Below are positions 56,177 to 61,290 of a DNA stretch of 64,000 bases, piece by piece. Positions within the stretch are counted from its first letter, which is position 1, and each line of letters opens with the position of its first letter. A model generated the notes under the pieces. The model saw nothing but the letters and a program-made list of their open reading frames with translations. It was not told the origin of the DNA and made no database searches. Both the position numbers and the translations under genes were made by a program. Source of the stretch: Natronorubrum sediminis (GTDB lineage: Archaea; Halobacteriota; Halobacteria; Halobacteriales; Natrialbaceae); the NCBI RefSeq assembly GCF_900108095.1, contig NZ_FNWL01000004.1:186001-250000 (forward strand), given 5' to 3'.

Positions 56177-56953
56177 GTGGTGGAAGATAGCGAACTCGAA
56201 TACGAAGACGAACAGCACGATGATCAGCGGACACAACAACCGCAAACTCATCAAAATACAAACAATGGCCTGCCGTTCAAACAAGGGGCAGTAATCGGTG
56301 CAATTGCGGTCATCGCGACGTACCTTTCACACCTTCTGGTGACGGTCATCGCGACGGCACAGGCGAGTCCGGTCGGAAGTGGAGAGGACGTTACCGAATT
56401 GGTCGCCTCGTGGGAGGCTGCCGGTTGGAGTTACCTCAGCGTGTTCGGTGCCGGATTCGAGGCCGAGGGTGAACGTGCCGTTCTCGCTGACGTTCCGAAT
56501 CAGGCCGCCGCATTCGTCTCGACTCCCTTCTTGCTCTCGTCGTCGCTGTTGTTCGTAGTGGCAATCGGCGGTGCAGTTGGTGCGGGATACGCAATCGCTC
56601 GCTACACAGAAGCCGAAGACGCGACTGAGGCGGTCAAAGCCAGTTTGACCGTGGTTCCGCCGTACCTCGTGTTCGCGCTCATCGCCGCCGTCGTGATGAC
56701 CCACACGTTCACCGAGGATGCTACGGTCACCGCGTTCTTCGGGGACCTCGGTGTGAACGCAGCACCGGGCCTCGAGGAAGGAGAGTACATCGACGGTGAC
56801 GGCGTCTCGGACATCGAGTTCGGCCCAGCAACGAGTAGCGCCGTTCTCTACGCTGGACTCCTCGTCCCTGCTGTGCTCGCCGCAATCGGCGGTCTCATCA
56901 CGCAGTGGCGTGACGCACTCGAGACCGTGATGGCGAAAGTCGACCAGCAGTAA
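56177..56953 (+). CDS. Haloarchaeal multi-spanning membrane protein, function unknown
   Basis: 258 residues from GTG 56177. A polar Gln/Asp-rich start (EDEQHDDQRTQQPQTHQNTNN) precedes about four helices at about 36-60, 112-138, 150-172 and 215-240. The extracytoplasmic stretches include acidic EGERAVLADVPNQ and GLEEGEYIDGDG. No motif suggests a class of transporter or enzyme; I do not recognise the family. The upstream 110 bases are AT-rich, with ATATTG (56118-56123) and CAATAT (56134-56139) forming an inverted repeat, so the gene may be locally regulated. Confidence 0.78.
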   Translation: MVEDSELEYEDEQHDDQRTQQPQTHQNTNNGLPFKQGAVIGAIAVIATYLSHLLVTVIATAQASPVGSGEDVTELVASWEAAGWSYLSVFGAGFEAEGERAVLADVPNQAAAFVSTPFLLSSSLLFVVAIGGAVGAGYAIARYTEAEDATEAVKASLTVVPPYLVFALIAAVVMTHTFTEDATVTAFFGDLGVNAAPGLEEGEYIDGDGVSDIEFGPATSSAVLYAGLLVPAVLAAIGGLITQWRDALETVMAKVDQQ

Positions 56954-57107: not shown

Positions 57108-57509
57108 TCAATCTGCAGCGTGATCGCTCGAGGTGTGGGTGTGGGTATGCGTTTGGTCACCCGTCGTGTACTGGTCGACGTCGACCGACGAGCGAACCGC
57201 CTCGAGCCACCGTCGGAGGTCGGTTGCGAGGAGCGTCGGGCTCTCGAGTCGGAGGAGTCGCCCGGTCAGGTGCTTGCCAGTCGGTGAACGAATCGCGGCG
57301 ATCAGTGCCCACATCGTGCCCGATGCGAGTGCGCCGAGCGCGGAGAGCGTCATACCGAGGGTCATGAACGTTATCCCGTAGACGACACCGATCGCCATCG
57401 ACGGCAGACTCGTTCCGAGTGGCACTCGAGAACTGGCATCCCGAAGCGTCGGTGCCAGAAAGGCGATCGAGAGGCTGCTACCGATCATGAAGACGAAGTC
57501 TTGCCACAT
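57108..57509 (-). CDS. Three-helix membrane protein with His-rich tail (paralogue B)
   Basis: 133 residues from ATG 57509 (GTG 57512 one codon upstream is an alternative). Paralogous to 34431-34793: MWQDFVFMIGSSLSIAFLAPTLRD, PSMAIGVVYGITFMTLGMTLSALG. Three hydrophobic helices precede a longer polar region (SPTGKHLTGRLLRLESPTLLATDLRRWLE) and a tail with alternating His, DQTHTHTHTSSDHAAD (four His). The His-rich ends of both copies suggest metal binding, but function is not known. Upstream, ACTC-N6-GAGT occurs on the plus strand at 57522-57535. Confidence 0.82.
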   Translation of the reverse strand: MWQDFVFMIGSSLSIAFLAPTLRDASSRVPLGTSLPSMAIGVVYGITFMTLGMTLSALGALASGTMWALIAAIRSPTGKHLTGRLLRLESPTLLATDLRRWLEAVRSSVDVDQYTTGDQTHTHTHTSSDHAAD

Positions 57510-57521
57510 CACAAGGGGCTT

Positions 57522-58607: not shown

Positions 58608-59174
58608 TCAGTCCGAATCCACGCGCCGTGCCCGCGATTCGAGCAGTCGCAATTGCGTACTGAACACCTGCGCGTCCGGCTCGAGCGCGTACTCGGCGTC
58701 CGTCTCGAGGCTGTCGCGCGTGAACAGGAACGTCGTCGCGTAGACCGAGTCGGTGTTCTCGTCGCGAGCGACGTAACCGGCGTACTCGTCGGGACGCTCG
58801 AGGACGGCGATCGTCTCCCCGTCCGGCGGCCGAAGGAGCTGGACGGTAAGCGGTGCCGGCAGTCGGTCGACGACGCGGAAGGAACTGCCCGGCTGATAGT
58901 CGTCCATTGACACCAACAGCGGTCGGTCGAGGAGATCCGGTTCGGGTTCGTTTGCTTCTTCGGTCTCGTCGTCGCTCGTCGACGCTACCTCCCCGTCTTC
59001 GGGTCCGTCGTTCGAGGCGCGGCCGCCGTCGATCGAACCCGAGGACCCGACTACGAGAATCCCTGCAGCGCTCGTCTTTCGTTCCGCTTCGCGACAGCGG
59101 TTCTCTCCGTCGGTGTTCGTCGAGTCGGTCGAACTGTTCGTCGGTCGTCTGGGTGGGTCGGATCGATGTGCCAT
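58608..59174 (-). CDS. Cluster paralogue C (long N-terminal polar region)
   Basis: 188 residues from ATG 59174 (MAHRSDPPRRPTN). The first 90 residues are polar and disordered, with a single Cys (ENRCREAERK) and a short stretch ILVVGSSGS. The C-terminal domain (about 97-185) is homologous to the two upstream genes: LLVSMDDYQPGSSFRVVDRLPAPLTVQLLRPPDGETIAVLERPDEYAGYV...TTFLFTRDSLETDAEYALEPDAQVF. It diverges the most of the three. It may be transcribed from the same promoter. No family is recognised. Confidence 0.75.
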   Translation of the reverse strand: MAHRSDPPRRPTNSSTDSTNTDGENRCREAERKTSAAGILVVGSSGSIDGGRASNDGPEDGEVASTSDDETEEANEPEPDLLDRPLLVSMDDYQPGSSFRVVDRLPAPLTVQLLRPPDGETIAVLERPDEYAGYVARDENTDSVYATTFLFTRDSLETDAEYALEPDAQVFSTQLRLLESRARRVDSD

Positions 59175-59397
59175 TGTCTCGAGAGTCGTCGGGTCGCCCC
59201 CTGTGGTGGTTGGCCCGGTTGTAGTCACAGGTCGCCTGTGATCACGGGTTACTTCGGTCTGCCAGTCCGTTCGTCCGCGGGTGGAACGCGGGTCCGCCGT
59301 ATCGGTTCGGAACGGATTCCGTCGTGGTGGTTCGGAGTGGATCGCGAGTCGGGGACCGTGTAAACGAATCAACGCGCGAAAAAGTGGTGAGTGGGTG

Positions 59398-59724
59398 TTA
59401 GTCTAGCGTCGTTTCGAGGAGGTTCAGCCGGGAACTGAACATCGTCGCGTCCTCGCCGAGTGTGCCGCTATCGTCTGCACTCAGGCTCTCGTCGCTGAGG
59501 AAGAGCAACGTCGTCGGTGCAGTCGCCCCATCACCGTCGTTGTACCGGATAACGTGTCCAGTGTAGTCGTCCGGCTGGGATATCTCTGGAACTGTCTCTC
59601 CGTCTCCGGTCTGAAGAATATCGACCGTCGTACTCGTCTCGAGTTGCGCAACGACGTCGAAACTCTCGCCGGATTCGTAGTCGTAGGTGAACACCAGTGC
59701 GCGGTCTTCTTGATCTTGAACCAT
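59398..59724 (-). CDS. Cluster paralogue B (domain alone)
   Basis: 108 residues that are just the shared domain, with no signal: LVFTYDYESGESFDVVAQLETSTTVDILQTGDGETVPEISQPDDYTGHVIRYN...TTLLFLSDESLSADDSGTLGEDATMFSSRLNLLETTLD. It is not exported by sequence, so should be cytoplasmic. Its ATG (59724) follows the stop of paralogue A by only two bases, a tight operon. Beta-rich, no cysteine, acidic. Function unknown. Confidence 0.8.
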   Translation of the reverse strand: MVQDQEDRALVFTYDYESGESFDVVAQLETSTTVDILQTGDGETVPEISQPDDYTGHVIRYNDGDGATAPTTLLFLSDESLSADDSGTLGEDATMFSSRLNLLETTLD

Positions 59725-59726
59725 GG

Positions 59727-60332
59727 TTAGTTCCCTCCGTTTCCGATTACGTCGTCGTCGTTTTCGTCGTCGACGTCGTTATCGAAGTCGTCGTCATCGT
59801 CGACGTCATCCTCGAAGTCGTCGTCATCATCCAGATCGTCATCGTCCAGGTCATCGTCCTCGAGGTCGTCATCATCGTCGACATCGTCGTCTGGCTCCGC
59901 AGCGTCGTCCAGGGACGTGCTGAGGAGGTTGAGATCCGGACTCAACATCGAAGCGTCTTCGCTGATCGTCCCGGTGTCACCGGCGCTCAGCTGCTGACCG
60001 TCGGCGAACAGGAACGTCGTAATTCCCGCTTCTTCTCCGATATCGTAACGGATGATGTGGCCGCCCCACTCGTCGGGCTGGCTGATCTCGTCGACGGTCT
60101 CGTCGTCGTCTTGGAGGATGTTGACCGTCGTACTCGTTTCGAGTACCGCGATGACGCTGAAGTCCGCGCCGGGATAGTAGTTGTTCGCGAAGACGGCTAC
60201 TCGATCCGACTCCTGTGCGCCCACGGTGGCGGTGCCAAATCCGGCCGTTCCGAGCGCAAGCGCACCCGTTGCGAGGGCACTCTTGGCCATGAACGACCGT
60301 CTCGAGTCGCCAGTTTGATCTTGGTTGCTCAT
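59727..60332 (-). CDS. Cluster paralogue A (Tat-exported, Asp-rich tail)
   Basis: 201 residues. A Tat signal (SRRSFMAKSALATGALALGTAGF, twin Arg, then a cleavable core ending at VGAQ) is followed by the shared domain (VAVFANNYYPGADFSVIAVLETSTTVNILQDDDETVDEISQPDEWGGHIIRYDIGEEAGITTFLFADGQQLSAGDTGTISEDASML) and an Asp-rich tail of about 50 residues (DDDVDDDDDLEDDD...), which could bind Ca2+ or Mg2+ outside the cell. First gene in the paralogue operon. Family not recognised. Confidence 0.82.
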   Translation of the reverse strand: MSNQDQTGDSRRSFMAKSALATGALALGTAGFGTATVGAQESDRVAVFANNYYPGADFSVIAVLETSTTVNILQDDDETVDEISQPDEWGGHIIRYDIGEEAGITTFLFADGQQLSAGDTGTISEDASMLSPDLNLLSTSLDDAAEPDDDVDDDDDLEDDDLDDDDLDDDDDFEDDVDDDDDFDNDVDDENDDDVIGNGGN

Positions 60333-61290
60333 TTGTCTCTCACGCCCCTTACGGGACAGACAAGAGTACCCCCAGTTTCCAGATTAACACCGACGACTGT
60401 TCCTTCTCATATCAATGAATTTCCTTCGGGGCAATCAGGCGTGCAGAATACCCCTCGATTGCTCTGTAATTCGGTGTTCACGTCAAATCACACCGATAAC
60501 TCATCGATTGAAACTGTCTCGGATCCATCAAACTATATTCCGACGACGGTGATGCCAACCACTCGACATAGCCACAACCGCCGCTAAAACACGTGATTGC
60601 GTCGTTCTAACGAGGTGAGGATCACCGGCTCACGGAGGTCGCTCACCGATGGCATTTTGTACAGTTTCTCGCCGGTCAATTCCCATCTAACCGCTAGTTA
60701 GCTCTCGGACACCCCTCACTAGTGAGTCGTTCCATGGACGTGACGTGAAACGGCGTTTCACTCGAGATAGCGGGCGTACATTACCGTCATTGGCCACACA
60801 GAGGCGAGCGTCGGCTGGAAACGAACTCCTTCTGATTTAACGGTTCGAAACGACCGTGTTACACGTCGCCAACTGTTTATTCTGCCGACAATCGAAGAAC
60901 GTGCCACGTCAGTTGTTCATACTGAATTACGAACTGGTAACTACGATCTCATCCTCGAGCGAAAAACACGCCCTCACGGCTCGAGGTGCGCCTCTCCGGC
61001 TGTTTCGTCTTCGCGTCCGACGGTGTGCGTTCCCCTCCGTTCCGATGAAACGAAACGAGCGGTTGACTCAGCGTCTCATCGCACGATCTCGCCTCACAAC
61101 CGTCTGCCGACACCAGAATACCGACAGTACGTGCCAGTGGTAGCGGTGGTGGTCGTACCGGTTGGTGGTAGTCGTGGTGGTGAACACGTCTCGAGCAGTC
61201 CGTACTCGCTTGGCTCGCGCCGATGAGGTAGTTTTTGCCAGCGCTGGCGACAACGGAAGGGTTTACACGCTCCGCACGATTGTCTCGCGC
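60333..61290. other. Gene-poor region before serA
   Basis: 958 bases without a gene I can support, AT-richer than average. Open frames here (the longest about 95 codons, 60856-61143) have a mixed, Arg/Cys-rich composition unlike halophile proteins. It must hold the promoter of the paralogue cluster on one side and of serA on the other. Near 61136-61182 is a G-rich run of GGT/GGTGGT units. The stretch TTTACAC (about 61262-61268) is a good serA TATA candidate. Confidence 0.55.

Follow-up and report, generated by a model that had tools for sequence, protein, structure and literature searches.

The Tat pathway can export a signal-less protein by way of a tagged partner, and this mechanism is well established (PMC10924467, PMC4273604). 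The described hitchhikers, among them the periplasmic Ni-Fe hydrogenases, the formate dehydrogenases and PaoABC of E. coli, consist of one twin-arginine subunit plus signal-less partners, and Tat moves the folded complex (PMC10924467, PMC4273604). In the haloarchaea, 39 to 55% of the secreted proteins are predicted to use Tat (PMC2945643). Here, we consider a tandem trio of genes, P1, P2 and P3, in a 64,000-nucleotide stretch of the Natronorubrum sediminis genome (the window). The trio is like the known systems in that one twin-arginine member stands beside signal-less ones. It differs in that the known partners are different enzyme subunits, whereas the members of this archaeal trio share one small domain as close paralogues, and in that a complex of them is a prediction. 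We tentatively propose that the tagged and untagged copies pair inside the cell and leave together via Tat with P1 as the carrier, and that P3 joins or modulates the assembly. The genes and the elements between them are as follows.

P1, 59727..60332, minus strand: Tat signal at about residues 1-39, a domain of ~95 aa and a 58-aa Asp-rich tail.
P1-P2 junction, 59725..59738, minus strand: GGAGG within the end of P1, the TAA stop, 2 bases (CC) and the ATG of P2.
P2, 59398..59724, minus strand: the bare domain, with neither signal nor tail.
T5 run, 59379..59383, minus strand: 14 nt past the P2 stop, a putative archaeal terminator.
P3, 58608..59174, minus strand: the domain plus a long polar N terminus, with ATG 59174 as the probable start.

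The initial annotation had described three consecutive minus-strand paralogues at 58608-60332, and this description holds: the open reading frames are in place, and they have in common a domain of ~95 residues with 33 to 56% identity in pairwise BLASTP (P1/P2, 56%, E 2e-32; P2/P3, 43%, E 2e-19; P1/P3, 33%, E 5e-11), which is homology far above chance. The Tat signal and Asp-rich tail ascribed to P1 were likewise recovered, in that the signal just passes TIGR01409 (16.9 bits versus the NCBIfam cut-off of 16.7) and the tail contains 34 Asp and 4 Glu among its 58 residues; P2 was correctly read as a signal-less bare domain, with CC between the P1 stop and the P2 start. The long polar N terminus reported for P3 is present too, but the listed TTG start at 59372 is probably wrong; the alternative ATG at 59174, at which the counterpart in the sister genome L069 also begins, would give a protein of ~188 aa. 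Compared with the sister genome, the dN/dS values of the domains are 0.05 for P1, 0.10 for P2 (0.10-0.18 across three pairs) and 0.23 for P3, which argues that all three are maintained by purifying selection. The polar N terminus of P3 is fast-evolving and relaxed, with a dN/dS of 0.60 in the same comparison.

The arrangement of P1 and P2 is conserved in detail. In most orthologues, P2 starts 2 bases past the P1 stop; in a few, its start and that stop overlap by 1-4 bases. A Shine-Dalgarno sequence, GGAGG or one close to it, lies inside the end of P1. The P2 N terminus, MVQDQEDR, matches the predicted mature N terminus of P1, QESDR, so that P2 starts at the predicted signal-cleavage point of P1 (MVQDQEDRALVF versus A-QESDRVAVF); the same is true of nearly all orthologues. 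Because MVQD aligns with the predicted mature P1 start, A-QE or A-QD, in the P2 orthologues, P2 would in effect be the mature P1 domain made inside. In most of the 16 trio genomes, the adjacent tagged and untagged genes appear to be arranged for co-translation, and P1 and P2 look like one coupled, presumably co-transcribed unit. Does this unit extend to P3? A T5 run is found within 90 nt past P2 in 13 of 17 loci, including the window, compared with a background of 2% of random 90-nt stretches, and this run is a possible archaeal terminator. U-tracts have a part in termination in archaea (PMC8716108), and with such a run after P2, expression of P3 on its own or through read-through is probable. 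The operon structure initially attributed to the whole trio is thus retained for P1 and P2 and given up for P3, which lies beyond the T-run and a gap of ~223 nt in the window.

The N terminus of P1 has a twin arginine (RRSFMAK), a hydrophobic stretch and an AxA site (VGA-Q), making P1 a predicted Tat substrate. No twin-arginine signal was found in P2, which has ~7 residues before the domain, or in P3, in which a weak hydrophobic stretch has no adjoining RR motif. To what extent does this split recur? A gene was placed in the RR class if it had an RRx[FVLMI] motif with a hydrophobic stretch after it; two P1 genes that the script scored as "weak" (L080 and L083) were set to RR by eye because they read RRSFMAK. 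The counted set comprised 51 tandem clusters with 131 genes, 63 of them RR. A clear-RR member stands with other members in 48 of the 51 clusters (mean of 32 and maximum of 43 in 20,000 label shuffles), and exactly one clear-RR member is present in 42 of the 51 (shuffle mean, 22; maximum, 36), although these shuffle figures are too strong given that clusters of related genomes are not independent. Under this clear-RR scoring, leaving out cluster L102 in the typed list gives 47 mixed clusters of 50. When the doubtful ("weak") signals are scored as intact, 41 of 51 clusters are mixed, a number reached in 38 of 20,000 shuffles (mean, 32).

This pattern is not one inherited event, since the tree requires at least 14 changes of the signal trait on well-supported branches and 17 in all. 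In some lineages, little beyond the twin arginine is altered (RH, RS or RD), with the rest of the signal intact, and such changes are more suggestive of selection acting on the route of export than of decay. We posit that the signal/no-signal split in most clusters is probably a working partnership. The early suggestion of cooperation between external and internal copies is strengthened by the excess of mixed clusters and by the coupled P1-P2 start; the cooperation itself is still something that we infer. A partner is not always needed, given that many members are single Tat genes with no partner in their locus. There are also non-RR copies, in part of the family, that retain a hydrophobic stretch at the N terminus and have a leader of their own.

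In a profile search, the family was matched in at least 65 of 391 Halobacteria genomes and at least 20 genera, both lower bounds, and all matches fell in two families, which the named loci and tree labels give as Natrialbaceae and Haladaptataceae. A phylum-wide draw of 393 genomes yielded 12 matches, all in these two families, and copy number ranges from 0 to 6 per genome. Gene order in relatives had been set beforehand as a check on the trio, and the order P1-P2-P3 with a bare P2 is kept in at least 16 genomes of 10 genera, two more fitting by coordinates. The three members form separate clades on the tree, of 15 rows for P1 (support, 96/93), 15 rows for P2 (100/98) and 17 rows for P3 (100/99). 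The bare copy clusters instead with its own P1 in G056 and Saliphagus. For L070 and L005/L006, where P2 joins the P1 of its own locus outside the P2 clade, the cause may be gene conversion or an independent origin of the bare copy. A decaying trio is seen at L084:12311-13021, where a second P2-like copy with a broken N-terminal half lies beside an intact P3. Haladaptataceae loci (L012, L018, L010, L020, L086 and L088) carry a similar pair, in which a Tat-tagged gene comes first and an untagged one from another subfamily second.

Upstream of P1, the trio has a leader of its own, with these elements.

Putative promoter, 60383..60403, minus strand: GGAACAGTCG-N6-TTAAT.
Whole leader element, 60333..60376, minus strand: matched by the sequence model R1 (E 2.3e-4).
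Leader hairpin, 60343..60358, minus strand: TGTCCC-GTAA-GGGGCG, followed by GTGAGAG and the P1 start.

In relatives, the upstream element is often GRAACRRTCG-N-TTTAT or CTTAT. The pattern C3+ N3-7 G3+ occurs shortly before the start in 64% of 91 Tat-type genes. Its frequency is 2.9% in 313 control ORFs and 2.4% in shuffles, and 0 of 37 control ORFs that have an RR motif show it. Because R1 is a sequence-only model, stem pairing was counted by a separate script: the pair beside the core is formed in 44 of 44 nonredundant cases, with five pair types (shuffle mean, 28), a figure somewhat inflated because the register was chosen for best pairing, and the next pair is formed in 21 of 44 (shuffle mean, 13.5). 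R1 gave 36 matches in 61 genomes, each just upstream of a family gene by coordinates and some in genomes beyond the profile-search set (G399 and G395, the sequences of the latter being also L005 and L006). A regulon in which the leader or promoter serves other genes was rejected, as R1 matches family genes only in the 61 genomes. Strict leader and promoter patterns find P1 only, or nothing, in the window's own genome, and the combined promoter-leader pattern finds P1-type genes only across 125 genomes. The leader hairpin thus appears to be family-specific and to precede most Tat-type members. Based on a TATA-like box ~55 nt before the start codon, transcription would start close to the hairpin, and the leader may act as an RNA hairpin or as a DNA palindrome. 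Stem-loops in haloarchaeal 5' untranslated regions can be needed for translational control (PMC2636863).

In total, these observations are consistent with a model in which the family consists of small, acidic, mostly beta haloarchaeal domains that would be exported folded via Tat. P1 would be the exported, tailed form, and P2 would be the same mature domain made in the cytoplasm, translated off the P1 message directly after P1. The two would bind each other in the cytoplasm, and P1 would carry P2 out through Tat; the product would be an assembly, at the surface or outside the cell, in which tailed and untailed subunits are combined. P3 would be an older paralogue that lost its twin-arginine motif and that joins or modulates the same assembly. 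Co-transcription, physical contact, co-export, the outside location and the role of P3 are all steps that we infer. The hitchhiking model is supported by the start of P2 at the P1 cleavage point, with its internal Shine-Dalgarno sequence and its 2-base gap or 1-4 base overlap; by the joint inheritance of separate, supported P1, P2 and P3 clades in at least 16 genomes and 10 genera; by the mixed clusters and repeated signal changes; by purifying selection on the P2 and P3 domains; and by the precedent of tagged-partner export via Tat (PMC10924467, PMC4273604). Against it stand the many single Tat genes without a partner, the non-RR copies whose hydrophobic stretch and own leader would be superfluous for a pure hitchhiker, and the apparent transcriptional separation of P3. 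More speculatively, and with rather less conviction, one could extend the model to a surface-protein family of paralogue hetero-oligomers in which one copy lost and another retained the RR on about a dozen or more occasions, the untagged copies are co-exported by the tagged ones and the leader hairpin sets expression. If the pairs do cooperate, they would amount to a repeated natural experiment on how duplication gives an exported protein a partner that stays inside or is exported with it, and they would offer a simple case in which to test hitchhiking by the archaeal Tat route.

Could the signal-less copies instead stay in the cytoplasm and bind the mature domain there, acting as decoys, chaperones or self-protection partners on the exported copy, or on its self-assembly, before it leaves? 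This is the main rival, and sequence alone would not separate it from hitchhiking. That P2 lacks any signal and yet is conserved and coupled to P1 fits a resident partner, as does the independent loss of the RR in P3 and several partner copies. However, there is no toxin-like or catalytic signature, the domains of P1, P2 and P3 contain no Cys, and there is no sign of harm or aggregation caused by P1 inside the cell. We regard a resident partner as possible, though on the unlikely side.

Less likely again is a simple birth and death of tandem duplicates, in which spare copies lose signal and tail, take on minor or unrelated roles and drift. Such turnover would account for the variable copy number, for the relaxed N terminus of P3 and the broken P2 copy in L084, and for the bare copies of G056 and Saliphagus that group with their own P1. 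It does not sit easily with the low dN/dS of the P2 domain in all three pairs, with the same P2 start point and junction in 16 genomes or with an excess of mixed clusters over shuffles under both scorings. Drift is possible for P3 and the broken L084 copy; it fits P2 poorly.

What, then, is the domain? Its assignment to no named family is upheld: with Pfam and NCBIfam, the Tat signal alone was recognized in the window proteins, a PHROG search gave no match to the domain family, and no PDB chain was matched by a 125-row profile, with which earlier PDB matches to trichosurin and a dipeptidyl-peptidase disappeared. The close set has eight invariant residues (Y16, L37, P51, D52, R60, F75, L100 and L103), and the broad set has 0 invariant positions. 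A fold model built from 125 relatives (m3b06a3b8aada; mean pLDDT, 83.8; all five models, 80-84) superseded a first model with two model groups of unequal confidence and predicts a small, mostly beta domain whose one helix, residues 30-36, falls in the sequence segment that resembles SH3. Its Foldseek neighbors include small beta-barrels, namely EutN/CcmL shell proteins, ribosomal S28e and phage ssDNA-binding proteins, but all at E >= 0.3 and query TM-scores of ~0.35-0.40, so kinship is unsupported. Given the lack of a supported Pfam, NCBIfam, PHROG or PDB match and the insignificant Foldseek scores, we view the domain as a family still without a name; it may be a small beta-barrel, and no enzyme signature is obvious in it.

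An identity as a bacterial SH3-like (SH3b) ligand-binding domain, through which these proteins would attach to a cell-envelope polymer, is very improbable. Short, weak Pfam matches do occur among the 125 members, to SH3_3 in 3 and to SH3_16 in 6 (best E, 0.0012), but 122 of the 125 have no SH3_3 match, none of the three window proteins matches SH3b (PF08239, PF18348), and no profile match among the 125 members is convincing. Moreover, the matched segment is the predicted helix in the better model, a secondary structure that differs from SH3, it reads like TRDDILES in divergent members, and no SH3 was found among the Foldseek matches. SH3b was therefore rejected.

The tails raise a separate question of function. 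Calcium binding by the Asp tail, as initially suggested, is unsupported and was rejected as a property of a conserved tail: among the long tails of Tat members, 65 in number, D/E-rich ones account for 32 and G/N-rich ones for 21, none has a hydrophobic anchor, and neither a shared motif nor a conserved acidic Ca2+ site was found. The PLSDB plasmid proteins H1, H4 and H5, named "calcium-binding protein" or "twin-arginine translocation signal domain-containing protein" in their records, are family members (47-56% identity). These labels appear automatic. No Ca-binding motif is common to the family, and many members have Gly/Asn tails in place of the acidic one; the "calcium-binding" label probably rests on composition. 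The work also delineates an unnamed family of proteins that has a leader element of its own and in which some members currently bear the "calcium-binding" name without support.

With regard to genomic site, serA and serB flank the trio in the window and in L069, L076, L077, L079 and L080, and serA alone is adjacent in L078 and L084; other trios occupy several different places. As the flanks are common to several genera, the window's site is old, and the initial view of the block as an insertion between serB and serA has to be withdrawn, while its companion statement that the block is not a mobile element is sustained. A mobile or viral cassette is scarcely credible and was rejected: members do occur on plasmids and trios in several places, but the regular serA-trio-serB order across several genera largely refutes it, no viral relatives were found in PHROGs or in a single-protein scan of viral contigs, and there is no transposase in the block.

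The neighborhood also holds an unnamed Tat-signal protein that is the divergent neighbor of the trio in 9 examined loci.

~640-aa Tat protein, L077:8515-10425, plus strand: equivalents in L004, L070, L073, L076, L079, L082, L084 and L146.

Searches with the L077 copy gave nothing in Pfam, NCBIfam or PHROGs and nothing significant in the PDB. The protein is absent from the window's genome, with no remnant near the window trio. Its nearest relatives (at least 60% identity) all adjoin a trio, and more distant paralogues elsewhere show ~42-56% identity. In Halovivax sp. KZCA124, a protein with a Cas12f1-like TNB domain (TnpB type; L004:7058-8434, minus strand) adjoins the trio. Near serB in the window are two unnamed ORFs with no Pfam match, at 57108-57512 (minus strand) and 56177-56953 (plus strand), the first of which is kept in L069, L076, L077, L079 and L080, the loci with the serA-serB context.
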